This document shows positions 4,407 to 20,360 of a DNA stretch of 20,360 bases, in pieces. The DNA comes from a virus. Numbering within the stretch: the stretch's first letter is position 1; every line of letters starts with the position of its first letter. The position numbers were made by a program, and so were the translations under genes. A model generated the notes under the pieces. It worked only from the letters and a program-made list of their open reading frames with translations. It was not told the DNA's origin and did not search any database. The stretch covers positions 1 to 20,360 of IMG/VR virus record IMGVR_UViG_3300047381_000081. The stretch is one strand, 5' to 3'.

Positions 4407-4509
4407 TTTCTATTTTTTCTTTTATTTTATCTACTGTTTCTTTTGATACTCTTAACTTCCATTCACCATCCACAAAACAAATTTGTGCATCTATATATTT
4501 GTCCATCAT
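4378..4509 (-). CDS. small hypothetical protein, 43 aa
   Basis: ATG 4509 overlaps the exonuclease stop as ATGA. The frame runs 43 codons to TAA at 4378, ending 29 bases inside the methylase gene. The sequence begins MMDKYIDAQICFVDGEWKLR and continues as a basic helix (SKETVDKIKEKIEN). The first part could form a short beta-hairpin. I do not recognise it. The double overlap with both neighbours is the main evidence that it is translated. Confidence 0.55.
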   Translation of the reverse strand: MMDKYIDAQICFVDGEWKLRVSKETVDKIKEKIENDRRTSTKR

Positions 4510-5273
4510 AATATGCCTCTCATTACATATTGGTCAATATCATTTTCTTCTTGGAAGAAGTACTTGTAGTTGTCTACTGCTTGTTTGAATTTGTCCTCAC
4601 CTCTTGCTATAAATTCTTCTGTTGTTTCAAAGATGCCAATATCACAACTTCCTTTGTCTACCACTAAGAACTTAAAGTCTTTTGCCTTAAACATTCTCTT
4701 GTACATATAAGCCTGTAAATCGTAGCCATACTTATCTGCACTATACTTAAATGTAGAAAGGTCAGCAGAAGTCTTTAAATCAATTATGGTGTCTCCTTGT
4801 ATAATATCTGCCTTTGCTCTAAAAGGTAACCCCTCTATCATTTCTATTGCAGGAACCTCAAACTCTGATTTGTTTAGTAGTTTAAGTGCTGCTTCGTTTC
4901 TTAGTACAGCATCTGCAACTCTTTCTGCTTGGCTCTTTTCTTTGTTCAGAAATACCTCACCGTGTGCTGCTTTCGCTTCTTTGTATATCTTGGTGTTCTT
5001 GGTTGATGCTTCTACAAAGTGTAACTCATCTACTTTGTGTGGTTCTAATATCATCCAATGTACTAACTTACCCTGTGCTAATGCAGGACTGTCTGAACTA
5101 GGGTCGCCATACTTAGTTACGTTTCTGTAAGTCTTGGGTGATTTAAGAATCATCTTTAGACTACTACTGCTTAGTGCGTGTTGTCCTAAGTGTCCATAGT
5201 AAAATTCATCGTTGTACATCTCTGCAAGGATTTCTTCCTTTCCCCAATGCTCGTTGTTTAGTAGTGTAATCAT
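4506..5273 (-). CDS. RecE-like exonuclease (PD-(D/E)XK, DUF3799-type)
   Basis: This 255-aa protein matches the C-terminal nuclease domain of RecE (exodeoxyribonuclease VIII). SSSSLKMILKSPKTYR (35-50) is the usual entry helix; GKLVH (68-72) gives the conserved histidine; FRAKADI (151-157) supplies D156; DLK (165-167) supplies the D-x-K pair; YDLQAYMYKR (184-193) is the Q/Y motif. It should digest one strand of duplex DNA to expose ssDNA. With the ERF annealing protein (9511-10029) and SSB (9139-9456) this gives a complete phage recombination set, although the exonuclease is encoded about 4 kb away. The start overlaps the preceding 50-aa ORF as ATGA. Confidence 0.85.
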   Translation of the reverse strand: MITLLNNEHWGKEEILAEMYNDEFYYGHLGQHALSSSSLKMILKSPKTYRNVTKYGDPSSDSPALAQGKLVHWMILEPHKVDELHFVEASTKNTKIYKEAKAAHGEVFLNKEKSQAERVADAVLRNEAALKLLNKSEFEVPAIEMIEGLPFRAKADIIQGDTIIDLKTSADLSTFKYSADKYGYDLQAYMYKRMFKAKDFKFLVVDKGSCDIGIFETTEEFIARGEDKFKQAVDNYKYFFQEENDIDQYVMRGIL

Positions 5274-5422
5274 ATTGCTTGTCTTTTTATTTTCTCAAAT
5301 CTTGCTCGTTTAACGTGTCCATCTAAATAATTGTCAGCATTATCTAAGATGTTGTCTAATTGTTCTTCTGTGTAGTTTGAGTACTCGTACTCTACCCACC
5401 AACTTTCTTGTTCGTATATCAT
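5270..5422 (-). CDS. small hypothetical protein, 50 aa
   Basis: ATG 5422 lies at the end of an exact copy of the leader AAAACAAACAATTATG, 13 nt after the U-tract of the terminator hairpin at 5436-5457. The frame ends in TGA at 5270, sharing ATGA with the RecE-like exonuclease start. The protein begins MIYEQESWWVEYEYSNYTEE, acidic and rich in Trp and Tyr, and ends in a basic helix (KRARFEKIKRQ). I do not recognise it. The overlap implies coupled translation with the exonuclease, so it may be a regulator or partner of that enzyme (inference). Confidence 0.65.
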   Translation of the reverse strand: MIYEQESWWVEYEYSNYTEEQLDNILDNADNYLDGHVKRARFEKIKRQAI

Positions 5423-5435
5423 AATTGTTTGTTTT
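5420..5435 (-). repeat. repeated translation-initiation leader, copy 2
   Basis: Exact copy of AAAACAAACAATTATG on the minus strand, ending in the start codon of the 50-aa gene. It directly continues the T-run of the upstream terminator, so terminator and leader form one compact module. Confidence 0.65.
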
Positions 5436-5467: not shown

Positions 5468-5683
5468 TTAGTTAAATAACTTATCTTCTGTCGAATCCAT
5501 AAGATACTCTACTTCCGATTTAAAAAAAGAAAATTCAGTTCTAATAGTTCCACAATCTTCTAGCGATTTTAACGCTGTGCCTTTCTTATAAGCACCTCTA
5601 CCTTCAGTAAGTTCTAAGAACCTTTCTTCGCTAATCTTAAACCATCTTGGCTCATCAGCGTAACATTGATAAACATTTTGCAT
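5468..5683 (-). CDS. hypothetical protein, 71 aa
   Basis: The start codon lies in an exact copy of the leader AAAACAAACAATTATG, and the gene is closed by a strong terminator at 5436-5457. The protein is acidic and soluble: MQNVYQCYADEPRWFKISEE, then a turn-rich basic patch (GRGAYKKGTALK) and an acidic helix near the C-terminus (SEVEYLMDSTEDKLF). I do not recognise the family. It resembles the 73-aa gene at 441-662 in size, leader and terminator, but the sequences are not similar. The 57-bp gap upstream may hold a promoter: it shares GTTTATATC with the consensus promoter at 691-721, but I find no clear TAnnTTTG. Confidence 0.72.
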   Translation of the reverse strand: MQNVYQCYADEPRWFKISEERFLELTEGRGAYKKGTALKSLEDCGTIRTEFSFFKSEVEYLMDSTEDKLFN

Positions 5684-5696
5684 AATTGTTTGTTTT
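5681..5696 (-). repeat. repeated translation-initiation leader, copy 3
   Basis: Third exact copy of AAAACAAACAATTATG on the minus strand, ending in the start codon of the 71-aa gene. Unlike copy 2 it has no terminator hairpin immediately upstream. Confidence 0.65.
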
Positions 5697-6885: not shown

Positions 6886-7298
6886 TAACTGTACTCCTTA
6901 AATACACGTTCTAACTTCTTCCATACCCCATTTAAAAAACAAGTGCTACAACCTGTTAATTCTCTATTGTCTTTAAAAACCCTATTGTATATTACTAACA
7001 AACTTTTTTGTTCTTCAGGTGTTACCTTGTTAAGTTTACCTACACGATCTGACAAATAATTAAATTCATCTTCTGTAAGGCAATTTGGCTTTTGATAGGG
7101 GAATAAGTAGTTAAGTTTATCTTTGCGTTCATCACATCCACAGTCCTCACCTGCCAAAAATTTAACTGCTTTCTCTATTCCTGTTGCTTTTGTAATCTTC
7201 TGTACAGTATCTCCTACCCCTGTACTTGCTTGTTCGTGGTTCTTAACCCACTCTTTGTAGGCTTTAGTCCTTTTGTCTTTTGGTGGTAATTCGTTCAT
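6885..7298 (-). CDS. hypothetical Cys-containing protein, 137 aa
   Basis: Two cysteine clusters are visible: EDCGCDERKDKLNYLFPY in the middle of the protein (preceded by KATGIEKAVKFLAG) and GCSTCF near the C-terminus, with one further Cys (PNCLTEDEF) between. They could form a zinc site or disulfides. The stretch between the clusters is helical. The start overlaps the sigma-factor gene by 35 bases, and the stop overlaps the nuclease-like gene as TAATG. I believe this kind of protein recurs in flavobacterial phages, but I cannot name a function. Confidence 0.7.
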   Translation of the reverse strand: MNELPPKDKRTKAYKEWVKNHEQASTGVGDTVQKITKATGIEKAVKFLAGEDCGCDERKDKLNYLFPYQKPNCLTEDEFNYLSDRVGKLNKVTPEEQKSLLVIYNRVFKDNRELTGCSTCFLNGVWKKLERVFKEYS

Positions 7299-7833
7299 AG
7301 TCGTTGTGTTTAAAATCTAAATACTCTTCTTCTAGTTTATTCCTTAAATCTTCTTTAAGGTGTTTTAATGTGTGGTAAATACTTACCCAACTTATTGATG
7401 TTTCTGCTGCAAGTTTACGCATACTCATATCCGTTTGACTATATAGCTTCCACAACTTCTTATCGTACCAACTCCATCCATCTGCTACCTCATCTACTAA
7501 TTCACAGATTTTGTGAAACGCTTCGTTTTCTTCTATGTTGTCTTGTTGAGGTAGTTGTGTATATACGTCATCGTGGTCTATAAAAACAAACCCAACTTTT
7601 TTCTTTTTGTTGTAATATTGATAGTACAAACTTCTTAAAGTAAAGAACACATAACCTCTACTTACTTTACCATTCTTTATAACTTTTTCTTCACTTGCAT
7701 ACTTTATCAGTACAAAATACATTTCCTGCACAATATCTTCTGCATATCTATACTCACCAAAACTATTGATGATAGCTACCCAATCCTTGTGCTGTGCGGC
7801 AACAAGTTCTAACCATTTAAGGGGGTATCCCAT
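7264..7833 (-). CDS. sigma-70-like RNA polymerase sigma factor
   Basis: This 189-aa protein has the two conserved parts of a small sigma factor. Residues about 18-48 resemble region 2 (YAEDIVQEMYFVLIKYA), where the AEDIVQE helix normally contacts core polymerase. Residues about 125-160 resemble region 4 (DMSMRKLAAETSISWVSIYH), a helix-turn-helix that reads the -35-like element. The linker holds a basic stretch (YNKKKKVGF) and an acidic one. There is no region 1.1 or region 3. It probably redirects host RNA polymerase to phage promoters, for example those of the structural genes. The start overlaps the preceding membrane-protein gene by 25 bases. Confidence 0.78.
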   Translation of the reverse strand: MGYPLKWLELVAAQHKDWVAIINSFGEYRYAEDIVQEMYFVLIKYASEEKVIKNGKVSRGYVFFTLRSLYYQYYNKKKKVGFVFIDHDDVYTQLPQQDNIEENEAFHKICELVDEVADGWSWYDKKLWKLYSQTDMSMRKLAAETSISWVSIYHTLKHLKEDLRNKLEEEYLDFKHNDYERITTKRQKD

Positions 7834-9510: not shown

Positions 9511-10029
9511 TTACACTTTTGATAACTCATCCTGTACTTTTTTAGATACTTTGTACTTTGATTTGATATTATCTATTGTGCCACCACCTTGTAAGTACTC
9601 TATTGCTTTTGAATATTCTACTGTGTTAGTGTTTAACCACTTCTTTTCTTCTTGTGTAGTCTTACCACTTGCAGCGTTTGCATCGTCATCTTCTGCTTGT
9701 AATCCTAAAAGGCTACTAAGTGTATAACGTCTGTAATATGTAACACAAGAACCTAACTTTTGTGGGTCTGTTATTTCAGGTAGTTTAAGTGCTGATACTT
9801 CTGCACCTCCTCCATCTATACATATTACTTTACTATAAACACAATCCTCTAATATAGGTTGTGTAAGTAACAACTTGTGCTTCTTAAGTAGAGGTTGTAG
9901 TTGTTTAATAAGTGAATTTATGTCAAAGTATTTTGACTTGTAAAAAGGGTTACTCGCATCCTTGCTGATTGCCCCAATTTCTTGCTGTAAGTTAAACAGC
10001 TTCTGATGTAAAGATAATTGTTTGCTCAT
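9511..10029 (-). CDS. erf: ERF-family single-strand annealing protein
   Basis: This 172-aa protein carries the ERF signature. The N-terminal part (KLFNLQQEIGAISKDASNPF, then YFDINSLIKQLQPLLKKHKL) matches the family's opening, and residues 93-116 contain GSCVTYYRRYTLSSLLGL followed by EDDDAN, the family's most conserved block. The protein should coat and anneal complementary single strands during phage recombination, working with SSB and the RecE-like exonuclease. It has its own promoter (10050-10082) overlapping the T-run of the upstream terminator. The C-terminal 50 residues (from GKTTQEEKKW) are a charged, variable tail. Confidence 0.88.
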   Translation of the reverse strand: MSKQLSLHQKLFNLQQEIGAISKDASNPFYKSKYFDINSLIKQLQPLLKKHKLLLTQPILEDCVYSKVICIDGGGAEVSALKLPEITDPQKLGSCVTYYRRYTLSSLLGLQAEDDDANAASGKTTQEEKKWLNTNTVEYSKAIEYLQGGGTIDNIKSKYKVSKKVQDELSKV

Positions 10030-10049
10030 ATTAATTGTTTTAATTTAAT

Positions 10050-10082
10050 CAAAGGTAAACAATAATTATGTAAAAAGCAAAA
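10050..10082 (-). promoter_or_regulatory. Bacteroidota-type promoter for erf-ssb
   Basis: The minus strand shows TTTTG (10078-10082), a 20-base spacer and TACCTTTG (10050-10057), matching TTG / TAnnTTTG. The -33 box is embedded in the T-run of the NinG terminator, so termination of one unit and initiation of the next share bases. Transcription should start near 10043, giving a leader of about 14 nt. Confidence 0.72.
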
Positions 10083-10099
10083 GGTGGACAAAATCCACC
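10072..10099 (-). terminator. intrinsic terminator after NinG
   Basis: On the minus strand, GGTGGA, loop TTTTG, TCCACC, then TTTTGCTTTTT. A 6-bp stem and an interrupted T-run make a good intrinsic terminator, 31 nt after the NinG stop codon. Confidence 0.75.
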
Positions 10100-10103
10100 C
10101 TTC

Positions 10104-10120
10104 ACAAACAAACAATTATA
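10104..10120 (-). ncRNA. candidate 3'-UTR antisense element against the repeated leader
   Basis: The transcript leaving the NinG gene contains ATAATTGTTTGTTT (10106-10119), 14 bases exactly complementary to the leaders of the genes starting at 662, 5422 and 5683. A further U opposite the G of AUG could form a wobble pair. The element sits between the NinG stop (10130) and the terminator hairpin (10083-10099), giving a layout of seed, stem-loop and T-run like that of many 3'-UTR-derived small RNAs. No ORF follows on the plus strand, so it is not an obvious plus-strand gene start. That it acts as an RNA is inference. Confidence 0.35.
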
Positions 10121-10129
10121 AGAGAAAAA

Positions 10130-10546
10130 TTAGGAAAGTTTTTTAAGAAGCGTAGAATATTCCTTAATCATTTCCTCTAATTCTACATTTGTAAATTTAG
10201 TTATTTCTTGACTTTTTTTATGTAGTTCTTCAGATAAGTTACTACCAAGATATAAACTATACTTGTATTGCTCTCCTGCTCTATAAACGTTACAAGCTAC
10301 ACATTGTGGTTTTACATTTCTTAAATCCCATCTAGTACTGTAATGTTTTCTACTTATAAAGTGTCCTGCTTGTATTCCACCTGTTTTCCAATGTCCTACT
10401 TTACCACAAGTAACACAAGTGCAATAACCTCTTTTATCAGCATTACTTAATCTTACATACTGACTAAATACAACATCTAACTTTTTTACAAGTTTACTTC
10501 TTGTTGGTTTCTTTGCTGTTTTTGGCATTGTCTTTTTTTTAATCAT
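10130..10546 (-). CDS. ninG: NinG/Rap-like recombination endonuclease
   Basis: This 138-aa protein matches the lambda NinG (Rap) family. KLVKKLDVVFSQYVRLSNAD (18-37) is the family opening; CTCVTCGK (42-49) is the first Cys pair; AGHFISRKHYSTRWDLRNVK (60-79) is the hallmark HNH-like block; QCVACN (81-86) is the second Cys pair, giving a four-Cys zinc site. Rap stimulates recombination by cutting branched intermediates. It overlaps the upstream 83-aa gene by 8 bases; codon 7 (MPKTAKK) is an alternative start. Its 3' end carries the antisense element and terminator described separately. Confidence 0.88.
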   Translation of the reverse strand: MIKKKTMPKTAKKPTRSKLVKKLDVVFSQYVRLSNADKRGYCTCVTCGKVGHWKTGGIQAGHFISRKHYSTRWDLRNVKPQCVACNVYRAGEQYKYSLYLGSNLSEELHKKSQEITKFTNVELEEMIKEYSTLLKKLS

Positions 10547-10790
10547 CTAAAGACTTTAAAAGTATCTCACCAGATGCTTCGTCTATACCTTTAATTTGTT
10601 TGTAAATAAATTTAGAATTTGCTTTTACTTCTTTTTTTTCTGTTTTACTAGAATTTAAACCTAAGTTCGTATATTGATTGCAATCTATTTTTAGTAAAGC
10701 ATCAGTTCTTTCTTTAATACTTAATTGGAAGTCTGTTGCTATTTTTTGTGCTAGTTCTTTTATGTCTTTCATATATTTAAGATAATACAT
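10539..10790 (-). CDS. hypothetical protein, 83 aa, upstream of NinG
   Basis: This is the first gene behind the promoter at 10808-10838. ATG 10790 and an in-frame ATG at 10772 (MKDIKEL) are both plausible; the longer form is given. The sequence is helical at the N-terminus (IKELAQKIATDFQLSIKERT), Asn/Ser/Lys-rich in the middle, and ends KQIKGIDEASGEILLKSLDD. No catalytic motif is visible and I do not recognise the family. The 8-base overlap with NinG suggests co-expression with this nuclease. Confidence 0.72.
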   Translation of the reverse strand: MYYLKYMKDIKELAQKIATDFQLSIKERTDALLKIDCNQYTNLGLNSSKTEKKEVKANSKFIYKQIKGIDEASGEILLKSLDD

Positions 10791-10807
10791 TATTAGCCTC
10801 CACCCAC

Positions 10808-10838
10808 CAAAGGTCGAACATTTTTTTTAAAAAGTCAA
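10808..10838 (-). promoter_or_regulatory. Bacteroidota-type promoter for the NinG unit
   Basis: The minus strand shows TTG (10836-10838, in context TATTGAC), a 20-base spacer and GACCTTTG (10808-10815), one base off TAnnTTTG. It shares ACCTTTG with the erf promoter at 10050. It lies in the 66-bp gap after the holin stop codon, at the boundary between the structural/lysis genes and the recombination/replication genes. Confidence 0.65.
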
Positions 10839-19096: not shown

Positions 19097-19137
19097 ATAT
19101 TGTACAATAAATTATTATTCAGTTTGTTGTGTTTTTA
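19097..19137. repeat. repeated intergenic leader, copy A
   Basis: The minus strand reads TAAAAACACAACAAAC then a run of A/T and TATTGTACAATAT before ATG 19096. It is nearly the same as the segment at 20273-20312, including the upstream stop codon. The two copies flank the block of three related coiled-coil genes, consistent with duplication. Confidence 0.7.
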
Positions 19138-19545
19138 ACTTACAAATTTTAAAGAATTAGCACGTTTGCGTAGTTCTTTTGTGTCAAACTCTAAGTTTTG
19201 TAAATTCTCTATTGCTTTTTGCATCGCCTTGTATTCAGTTAAACTTTTAACTTCATCACCAAAACCAAGTTTTTTTGATTCCTTTACAAGGTTGCTCATT
19301 ACACTTTTTAGTTGTCTTTTAAGGTCTGAAACATCGTCAAATTCTACTGCAATGCTTTTTATGTTTCTAATAATGTTGTCTAATGTATTTAACTCGCCCA
19401 TCATTTCTCTATGTAATTTATCTACATCAGAAATTTTTCCGTTTACTTCTTTTACTAACGTCTTGGCTTCGGCAATAGAAGCTAACTCTACCCTCTCTTG
19501 TTGTTTAGCTAACTTGGTAATTATTTTTTGTACGCTTGGTTTCAT
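19135..19545 (-). CDS. coiled-coil protein, tandem paralogue 3 (136 aa)
   Basis: The N-terminus MKPSVQKIITKLAKQQERVE continues LASI and then a long charged helix with heptad-like Leu/Ile spacing (VNGKISDVDKLHREMMGELN; DLKRQLKSVMSNLVKESKKL) to KRANSLKFVS. The first 14 residues are identical to those of the gene at 19553-19912, and the first 42 nt differ at only 2 positions. There is no catalytic motif. It lies directly upstream of the scaffold-like gene, so it may be an assembly or internal virion protein. Members of this tandem set may be partly redundant. Confidence 0.75.
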   Translation of the reverse strand: MKPSVQKIITKLAKQQERVELASIAEAKTLVKEVNGKISDVDKLHREMMGELNTLDNIIRNIKSIAVEFDDVSDLKRQLKSVMSNLVKESKKLGFGDEVKSLTEYKAMQKAIENLQNLEFDTKELRKRANSLKFVS

Positions 19546-19552
19546 ATTTTTA

Positions 19553-19912
19553 TTATTTAATTACTTCAAGTAAATCTTGTCTAATAGATGAAATCTTTTT
19601 TTGTAGTTGACGAGATTTTTTAATTTCAGGTAAACTGTTTTCATCAATACCCAATTCTTTTACTTTAGAAATCATTTTTTGTGCAATAGAAACAATTTTG
19701 TTTTCTGCTTTAGATAAAGATTTGAATGCTGCATCAGCTTTGTTCTGTACAGATTTTAAAGTTTTAACCAAATTTTCTGCATCTTCTAAAGATTGTAAAG
19801 CATCCATAGCAGCACTCGCATATTCTTGTGCTATTCCTAACTCTACCTTCTCTAAGTTATTCTCTTGCTCTTTAGCTAACTTAGTGATTATTTTTTGTAC
19901 GCTTGGTTTCAT
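19553..19912 (-). CDS. coiled-coil protein, tandem paralogue 2 (119 aa)
   Basis: The N-terminus MKPSVQKIITKLAKEQENNL continues EKVELG, followed by a helical body (AMDALQSLEDAENLVKTLKS; FKSLSKAENKIVSIAQKMIS) and a basic end. It shares the identical start with the next gene and the KVELG motif with the previous one. The 7-bp gap to the next start suggests co-translation. Function unknown; a virion-internal or scaffold-associated protein is the best guess from location. Confidence 0.75.
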   Translation of the reverse strand: MKPSVQKIITKLAKEQENNLEKVELGIAQEYASAAMDALQSLEDAENLVKTLKSVQNKADAAFKSLSKAENKIVSIAQKMISKVKELGIDENSLPEIKKSRQLQKKISSIRQDLLEVIK

Positions 19913-20272: not shown

Positions 20273-20312
20273 ATTTATACAATAGGTTATTAATTACTTT
20301 GTTGTGTTTTTA
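20273..20312. repeat. repeated intergenic leader, copy B
   Basis: The minus strand reads TAAAAACACAACAAAG, then A/T-rich bases and TATTGTATAAAT before ATG 20272. It matches the segment at 19097-19137 over almost its whole length, including the stop codon of the upstream gene. Confidence 0.7.
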
Positions 20313-20360
20313 ATTTGCTGCTTCACATTCTGCACAGTCATCGTATTGAACAGATGCTGT
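20310..20360 (-). CDS. C-terminal end of an unknown gene (edge-truncated)
   Basis: Sixteen codons are visible before TAA at 20310: TASVQYDDCAECEAAN. The frame is chosen because its stop sits at exactly the same place in the repeated intergenic segment as the stop of the gene at 19135-19545. The CxxC pair might be part of a metal site. Too little is present to identify the protein. Confidence 0.5.
   Translation of the reverse strand, partial: TASVQYDDCAECEAAN

Follow-up and report, generated by a model that had tools for sequence, protein, structure and literature searches.

A conserved element at the 3' end of ninG in uncultivated phages changes in step with early-gene leaders and may act as a trans-acting antisense RNA

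Results

The ninG transcription unit

The window analysed here is a complete IMG/VR record of 20,360 bases, a fragment of an uncultivated phage with its recognisable genes on the minus strand. The locus of interest is ninG (10130-10546, minus), an ORF encoding a NinG/Rap-like junction endonuclease (PF05766, 3.5e-13; phrog_5034, 4e-25), the start of which is overlapped by an 83-aa ORF belonging to the same transcription unit (10539-10790, minus) and lacking any family match. Portal, endolysin and holin genes lie upstream. Past ninG there is a terminator and then the gene for an ERF annealing protein (PF04404), which has a -7-like box of its own (TACCTTTG); further downstream are found a DnaB-like helicase-domain protein, a sigma-factor-like protein, small ORFs, a RecE-like exonuclease, an MT-A70 methyltransferase and the terminase.

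Ahead of the ninG unit is a promoter-like block, TTGAC..AAAAAAAA..GACCTTTGGTGGGTGG (10801-10837, minus), which is conserved in relatives and has a -7 box of the sigma-A type TANNTTTG, in the version GACCTTTG in the window; the sigma-A -7 consensus of Flavobacterium psychrophilum is TAnnTTTG (PMC9723704). In approximately 60 distinct relatives the block recurs as TTGAC..A8..TA(A/C)CTTTGGTGGGT, with the ninG stop codon about 0.7 kb further 3'. Because it is so deeply conserved, the ninG unit is probably transcribed on its own, with read-through from the structural genes still possible; this is an inference from sequence alone. The presence of this block also weakens the idea that the RNA is the 3' end of a late operon and hence a late-to-early switch. 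At the -7 box, in the window (10789-10825, minus) and in relatives, a block CTTTGGTGGGTGGAGG (or CTTTGGTGGGTNAGTGGG) is almost invariant. Within it, GGAGG ahead of AATAATG could be taken for a Shine-Dalgarno sequence, which this phylum does not employ, or for a conserved 5' end of an RNA.

Gene starts in the structural region look different. At four of them (19097-19141, 20273-20316, and upstream of 16826 and 14112; all minus) ACAAA-N15/17-TATTGTAYAA (or TATTGTATTAA) stands directly before ATG. This sequence is unlike the TANNTTTG boxes of early genes, and TATTGTA recurs in two relatives (L046 and L060). The motif resembles a late promoter and could possibly serve the phage's sigma-like protein (7264-7833). 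Also in this region, two adjacent ORFs (19135-19545 and 19553-19912, minus; MKPSVQKIITKLAK.QE) are paralogous; a block of 57 nt where they begin is 93% identical between the two, from which we infer a tandem duplication.

An antisense element and terminator at the ninG 3' end

The 3' UTR of ninG carries a 14-nt element, ATAATTGTTTGTTT (10106-10119, minus), which lies about 10 nt beyond the NinG stop codon (10130-10132) and which we call the seed. Its position and its ATTGTT core are kept in relatives. Immediately 3' of it, the RNA would end in an intrinsic terminator hairpin, GTGAAGGGTGGATTTTGTCCACCTTTTGC-TTTTT (10077-10105, minus, with the tail reaching about 10072), recognised both by its fold (-17.1 kcal/mol, z -5.2) and by its conservation. 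When the 64-nt 3' end is folded the seed is unpaired; in a fold of 161 nt it is able instead to pair with upstream coding sequence. An Rfam scan of the window gave no matches above the gathering score, so the putative seed RNA does not belong to a known Rfam family, and a tRNA scan of the window was likewise without matches.

The seed is the exact complement of a leader, AAACAAACAATTAT, that occurs three times on the minus strand (661-674, 5421-5434 and 5682-5695), with the G of the ATG coming straight after it in each case. The reverse complement of this leader has a single minus-strand occurrence, at 10106-10119, and in 100 dinucleotide shuffles the expected number of exact 14-nt matches was 0.00 and the largest 0. 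The first leader (661-674, minus; -16.8 kcal/mol) precedes a 73-aa ORF (441-662) and has a -7 box, TATCTTTG, upstream. The second (5421-5434, minus) precedes a 50-aa ORF (5270-5422); here the exact pairing is extended by a G-U pair and reaches -22.2 kcal/mol with a second helix, a hairpin with a T-run lies before the leader, and the orthologous leader covaries in relatives. The 50-aa ORF in turn overlaps the start of the RecE-like exonuclease gene (DUF3799, PD-(D/E)XK-like; 4506-5273, minus; PF12684, 1.8e-22; phrog_412, 6e-40). The third leader (5682-5695, minus; -15.2 kcal/mol) precedes a 71-aa ORF (5468-5683). None of the small ORFs behind the three exact leaders has a Pfam or PHROGs match.

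These results bear out most of what an earlier note, made without database searches, had described: a 14-base pairing between 10104-10120 and three leaders at 660-675, 5420-5435 and 5681-5696, a G-U extension into the start codon, a following intrinsic terminator, and small target genes of unknown function, one of them coupled to a RecE-like exonuclease. Each of these points held, the ranges given for the element including flanking bases, and the description of the targets applying to the three exact leaders. The layout of seed, stem-loop and T-run that it likened to a regulatory RNA is also supported, while the RNA species itself and any repression remain inferred.

Two further pairings in the window lie beyond those three. 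At the start of the ERF gene (9511-10029), codons 2-6 (CAAACAATTAT; region 10009-10032, minus) pair with the seed at -16.5 kcal/mol, making ERF a probable target, and the leader AAAACAACAATTATTATG of a 52-aa ORF (232-390; leader region 388-408, minus) is a possible weaker one, pairing at -14.2 kcal/mol with bulges and two mismatches. Seed and targets all occupy the same strand, from roughly 0.1 to 9.4 kb apart. A cis-encoded antisense RNA of the OOP type is thus ruled out, the seed not being transcribed opposite any target.

The element in related phages

Relatives were collected by searching viral contigs with NinG and exonuclease queries, which produced 164 loci at which the ninG 3' end could be read, with NinG proteins 58-100% identical to that of the window. 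All are metagenomic contigs, apart from one contig of a Flavobacteriaceae metagenome-assembled genome (MAG), and none comes with expression data. A single-protein scan of genome contigs gave no matches; it was an alignment scan there that gave the MAG contig (L342, DIAL01000090.1; UBA5079). This contig has a class-b ninG end and a complementary ERF leader, AAAGAACAATG, and is the sole hint at a host family. NinG proteins of isolated phages (Flavobacterium tooticki, Riemerella PJR4 and Bacteroides BS-TP2) were not used as comparators, being at most about 42% identical and set in other gene contexts. As a finder of further copies a covariance model (R1) was abandoned; its best matches recovered ninG 3' ends and its weaker ones were ordinary terminators.

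Nearly all relatives have a T-rich element with the core ATTGTT no more than about 30 nt past the ninG stop codon, followed by a hairpin with a T-run, and the hairpin itself has changed on both sides at five of its nine pairs. The element keeps its place and varies in sequence, falling into about six variants: classes a (TTGTTTGTT), b (TTGTTCTTTGT), c (TTGTTCTTTATTTG), d (TTGTTTTATT), e (TTGTTTTATGT) and f (TTATTTGTTTTA). On the NinG tree at least 14 changes of element class are needed.

Co-evolution of element and leaders

The earlier note had proposed looking in related phages for compensatory change between element and leaders, and such change was found. The class-a element ATTGTTTGTTT is accompanied by the leader AAACAAACAAT(T)-AUG, the element ATTGTTCTTTGTTT by the leader AAACAAAGAACAAUG, and the element ATTGTTCTTTATTT by the leader AAAUAAAGAACAAUG; the compensatory element/leader pairs are ATTGTTTGTTT/AAACAAACAAT, ATTGTTCTTTGTTT/AAACAAAGAACAAT, ATTGTTCTTTATTT/AAATAAAGAACAAT, TTAATTGTTTTA/TAAAACAATTAA and TTGTTTTATGT/ACATAAAACAA. 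Individual genomes illustrate this. Three class-b genomes (L047, L068 and L308) have the leader AAACAAAGAACAATG; a class-c genome (L073) carries AAATAAAGAACAATG, and another of its genes is complementary to the element's other half (GAAACAAATAA with TTATTTGTTTC); TAAAACAATTAA and ACATAAAACAA are the leaders of L227 and L255. The same note had named as refuting evidence a leader that is kept where the element is lost. The class-a leader ACAAACAAT(T)ATG is present in 12 of 19 genomes with the class-a element, against 3 of 64 with other elements, and the three genomes without an element (L207-L209) lack this leader too.

Matches to the element are concentrated where translation would begin. Start windows make up 4.9% of the sequence and hold 45 of the 79 exact antisense matches that are 12 nt or longer; the corresponding figures for control matches are 3 of 24 (complement), 0 of 5 (reverse) and 0 of 4 (sense). 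Relative to the AUG, matches peak between -20 and -1, with a small second peak at +10 to +20 that represents ERF.

Several comparisons of own with foreign elements agree. For the exonuclease-linked leader the pairing energy was -10.84 kcal/mol with the own element and -8.25 (sd 0.36) with permuted ones, and for the ERF start -13.06 against -11.33 kcal/mol (sd 0.28), neither value being reached in 20,000 permutations. Since clustering of elements at a similarity of 0.75 merged almost everything and left no usable cluster test, we adopted a lineage-level test, which is stricter in that close relatives are collapsed and the foreign set includes elements of the same class; across 33 lineages there were 2.42 12-nt matches per 100 starts with own elements and 0.63 with foreign ones (0 of 20,000 permutations). 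Own elements match own starts 2.4- to 3.9-fold better than foreign elements at 10-12 nt, and 1.6-fold better at 9 nt. When 9-mers common to at least two gene starts were chosen without consulting the element, their complement was present in the genome's own element in 30 of 78 genomes, compared with 10.5 expected for elements of foreign classes and 0.6 for random segments; the same test on segments upstream of other terminators in these genomes gave 5 of 142. Single deviations at starts comprised 17 G-U, 2 A-C and 22 transversions, against a background of 27:14:95 (p 0.006), which is only modest evidence because A/C-rich leaders yield G-U by transition in any case. Pairing potential, its position at start sites and the co-evolution of element and leaders are shown at the level of sequence.

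There are weak points in the comparison. Simple ORF rules were used to assign gene starts, and permutations do not fully model phylogeny. Class b, a large class, is at background in the shared-9-mer test (5 of 24, with 4.35 expected from foreign elements) and is uneven, with clear paired leaders in some genomes and several exonuclease-linked leaders unpaired. Elements of classes d and e are of low complexity, and ERF has no better match to its own element there. A separate observation concerns class-b loci, where ACAAAGAACAATA(TACA), complementary to the element over 13-17 nt, is conserved in a coding region (L053:2903, L060:12721, L058:12720 and others), some 70 nt before the sigma-like gene and not at a start; it could be a target site or could reflect a conserved KEQY peptide.

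Discussion

In proposing a role for the ninG 3' end, we need to explain why a short sequence between a stop codon and a terminator should be complementary to the starts of several other genes, and why the two should change together. We consider it likely that a trans-acting antisense RNA, consisting of the ninG 3' end or derived from it, represses translation of early genes; the RNA species, its processing, the repression and its timing are all inferred. We propose that the ninG unit, consisting of the promoter-like block, the 83-aa ORF, ninG and the terminator, carries a T/G-rich seed beside the terminator hairpin, and that the active RNA would be either the ninG mRNA itself, acting through its 3' end, or a released RNA of about 50-60 nt. 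The seed would pair in trans with the A/C-rich leaders of several phage genes, which extend to the AUG or across it. The genes concerned would be ERF, three small genes of unknown function and the small one coupled to the RecE-like exonuclease. The duplex would hide the start codon and the upstream adenines used by Bacteroidota ribosomes that do without Shine-Dalgarno sequences, and initiation would be blocked, possibly followed by degradation of the target mRNA. Expression of ninG would in this way turn down other early and recombination genes.

Flavobacterium johnsoniae mRNAs lack Shine-Dalgarno sequences and initiate better with adenines at -3, -6, -12 and -13 and with little structure (PMC6847099). 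Most of those adenine positions would be hidden in a duplex spanning about -12 to +3, and for this reason, and given the predicted energies in the window, we favour translational repression in trans. The element also fits a 3'UTR-derived small RNA in those criteria that can be judged from sequence: it lies in a 3' UTR and uses the terminator of its parent mRNA, which is kept in relatives; its conserved seed is predicted to be unpaired in the 64-nt 3' end and is complementary to initiation regions, with the caveat of the alternative longer fold; and seed and targets show compensatory change, which is weak in class b. The earlier note had supposed that, if the RNA acts, expression of recombination genes would shut down translation of a set of genes across the genome. 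This needs correction, since the predicted targets include ERF and, through the coupled upstream ORF, the exonuclease; the circuit is therefore not simply one of recombination genes silencing unrelated ones.

The strongest alternative is a DNA operator, in which a phage protein binds AAACAAACAATTAT and its variants at early gene starts and an inverted copy where ninG ends, the protein evolving along with its sites. A site and its inverted copy are always complementary, a changing binding protein would leave the same own-versus-foreign signal, and two target starts do have a sigma-A-like -7 box shortly upstream. However, the ninG copy is placed between a stop codon and a terminator hairpin and not at a promoter; 38 of 60 start matches lack a promoter-like box within the 65 nt before them, so that copies track the AUG; the second leader of the window directly follows a terminator; the ERF pairing shifts into codons 2-6 in class a; and deviations favour G-U, a test weakened by the A/C-rich leaders. 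Because the sites follow AUG codons and not promoters, and because of where the ninG copy sits, we think an operator unlikely, without being able to exclude it fully.

Alternatively, the RNA might pair without repressing, by stabilising or activating its targets, by serving as a sponge or decoy, or by tying the 5' and 3' ends of mRNAs together. The sequence evidence provides pairing potential and not the sign of the effect, but almost every duplex takes in the AUG or the nucleotides immediately preceding it, and the leaders are A-rich where initiation in F. johnsoniae relies on adenines upstream and on little structure (PMC6847099). We think a non-repressive role unlikely as well. We give still less weight to an artefact of composition, that is, chance complementarity between T-rich stretches before terminators and A-rich Bacteroidota leaders. 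Both sides are indeed of low complexity, 9-nt matches are little enriched over foreign elements and class b is weak in one test, but foreign elements of like composition and position match 2.4- to 3.9-fold less at 10-12 nt, segments before other terminators rarely match, and dinucleotide shuffles never do. Finally, a functionless relic of an inverted gene start, which the earlier note had allowed and which the exact identity with three window leaders might suggest, is practically eliminated by an element that keeps its position in divergent relatives and whose sequence changes along with the leaders.

The proposed antisense RNA has partial analogues elsewhere. CisR, from prtV, represses the cep mRNA of CTX-phi (PMC13250501) and likewise has a 3' UTR seed at the end of its parent mRNA that pairs in trans; CisR, however, is encoded by the host, involves Hfq and has a phage target, whereas with ninG both parent and targets belong to the phage, the leader is shared by several genes, the hosts lack Shine-Dalgarno initiation and there is no experimental evidence. 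Lambda OOP on cII and aQ on Q (PMC12197685) are phage RNAs that lower phage genes through complementarity, an effect that is only inferred for ninG, but each has one target only (a cis action is proposed for aQ, and OOP lies opposite cII), while the ninG element is short and would act in trans on multiple targets. For the intergenic sRNA1 and sRNA2 of phage PAK_P3 (PMC4933390), base pairing in trans has been proposed as it is here; those RNAs were seen by RNA-seq and have no confirmed targets, whereas the ninG element has predicted, co-evolving targets and no expression data. Within the same phylum, Rfp18 of F. psychrophilum (PMC9723704) is predicted to use one pairing region for several related mRNAs, but it is an independent transcript of the host chromosome and differs in sequence and targets. 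RegA of phage T4 represses initiation at several early genes with related starts (cf. the review PMC3014915); it is a protein, and the factor proposed here is an RNA. Our search of the open-access literature, which was not exhaustive, found no phage 3'UTR RNA directed at a leader common to a number of genes of the same phage. It is rare for a phage RNA to control several genes of its own phage in trans, and no example was found for Bacteroidota phages in the literature searched.

A bolder reading, which in our judgement could as readily fail as hold, is that a widespread lineage of uncultivated Bacteroidota phages possesses an RNA regulon of its own, in which the ninG 3'UTR antisense meets a 'leader code' shared by early genes, and seed and code drift together so that each lineage keeps a private translation address in a host lacking Shine-Dalgarno initiation. 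Owing to the co-evolution, the RNA claim can be tested without a cultured phage. If it is true, the element would be a natural antisense probe of the leader positions that matter for initiation without Shine-Dalgarno sequences, and ninG, ERF and the RecE-like exonuclease would be linked in one RNA circuit.
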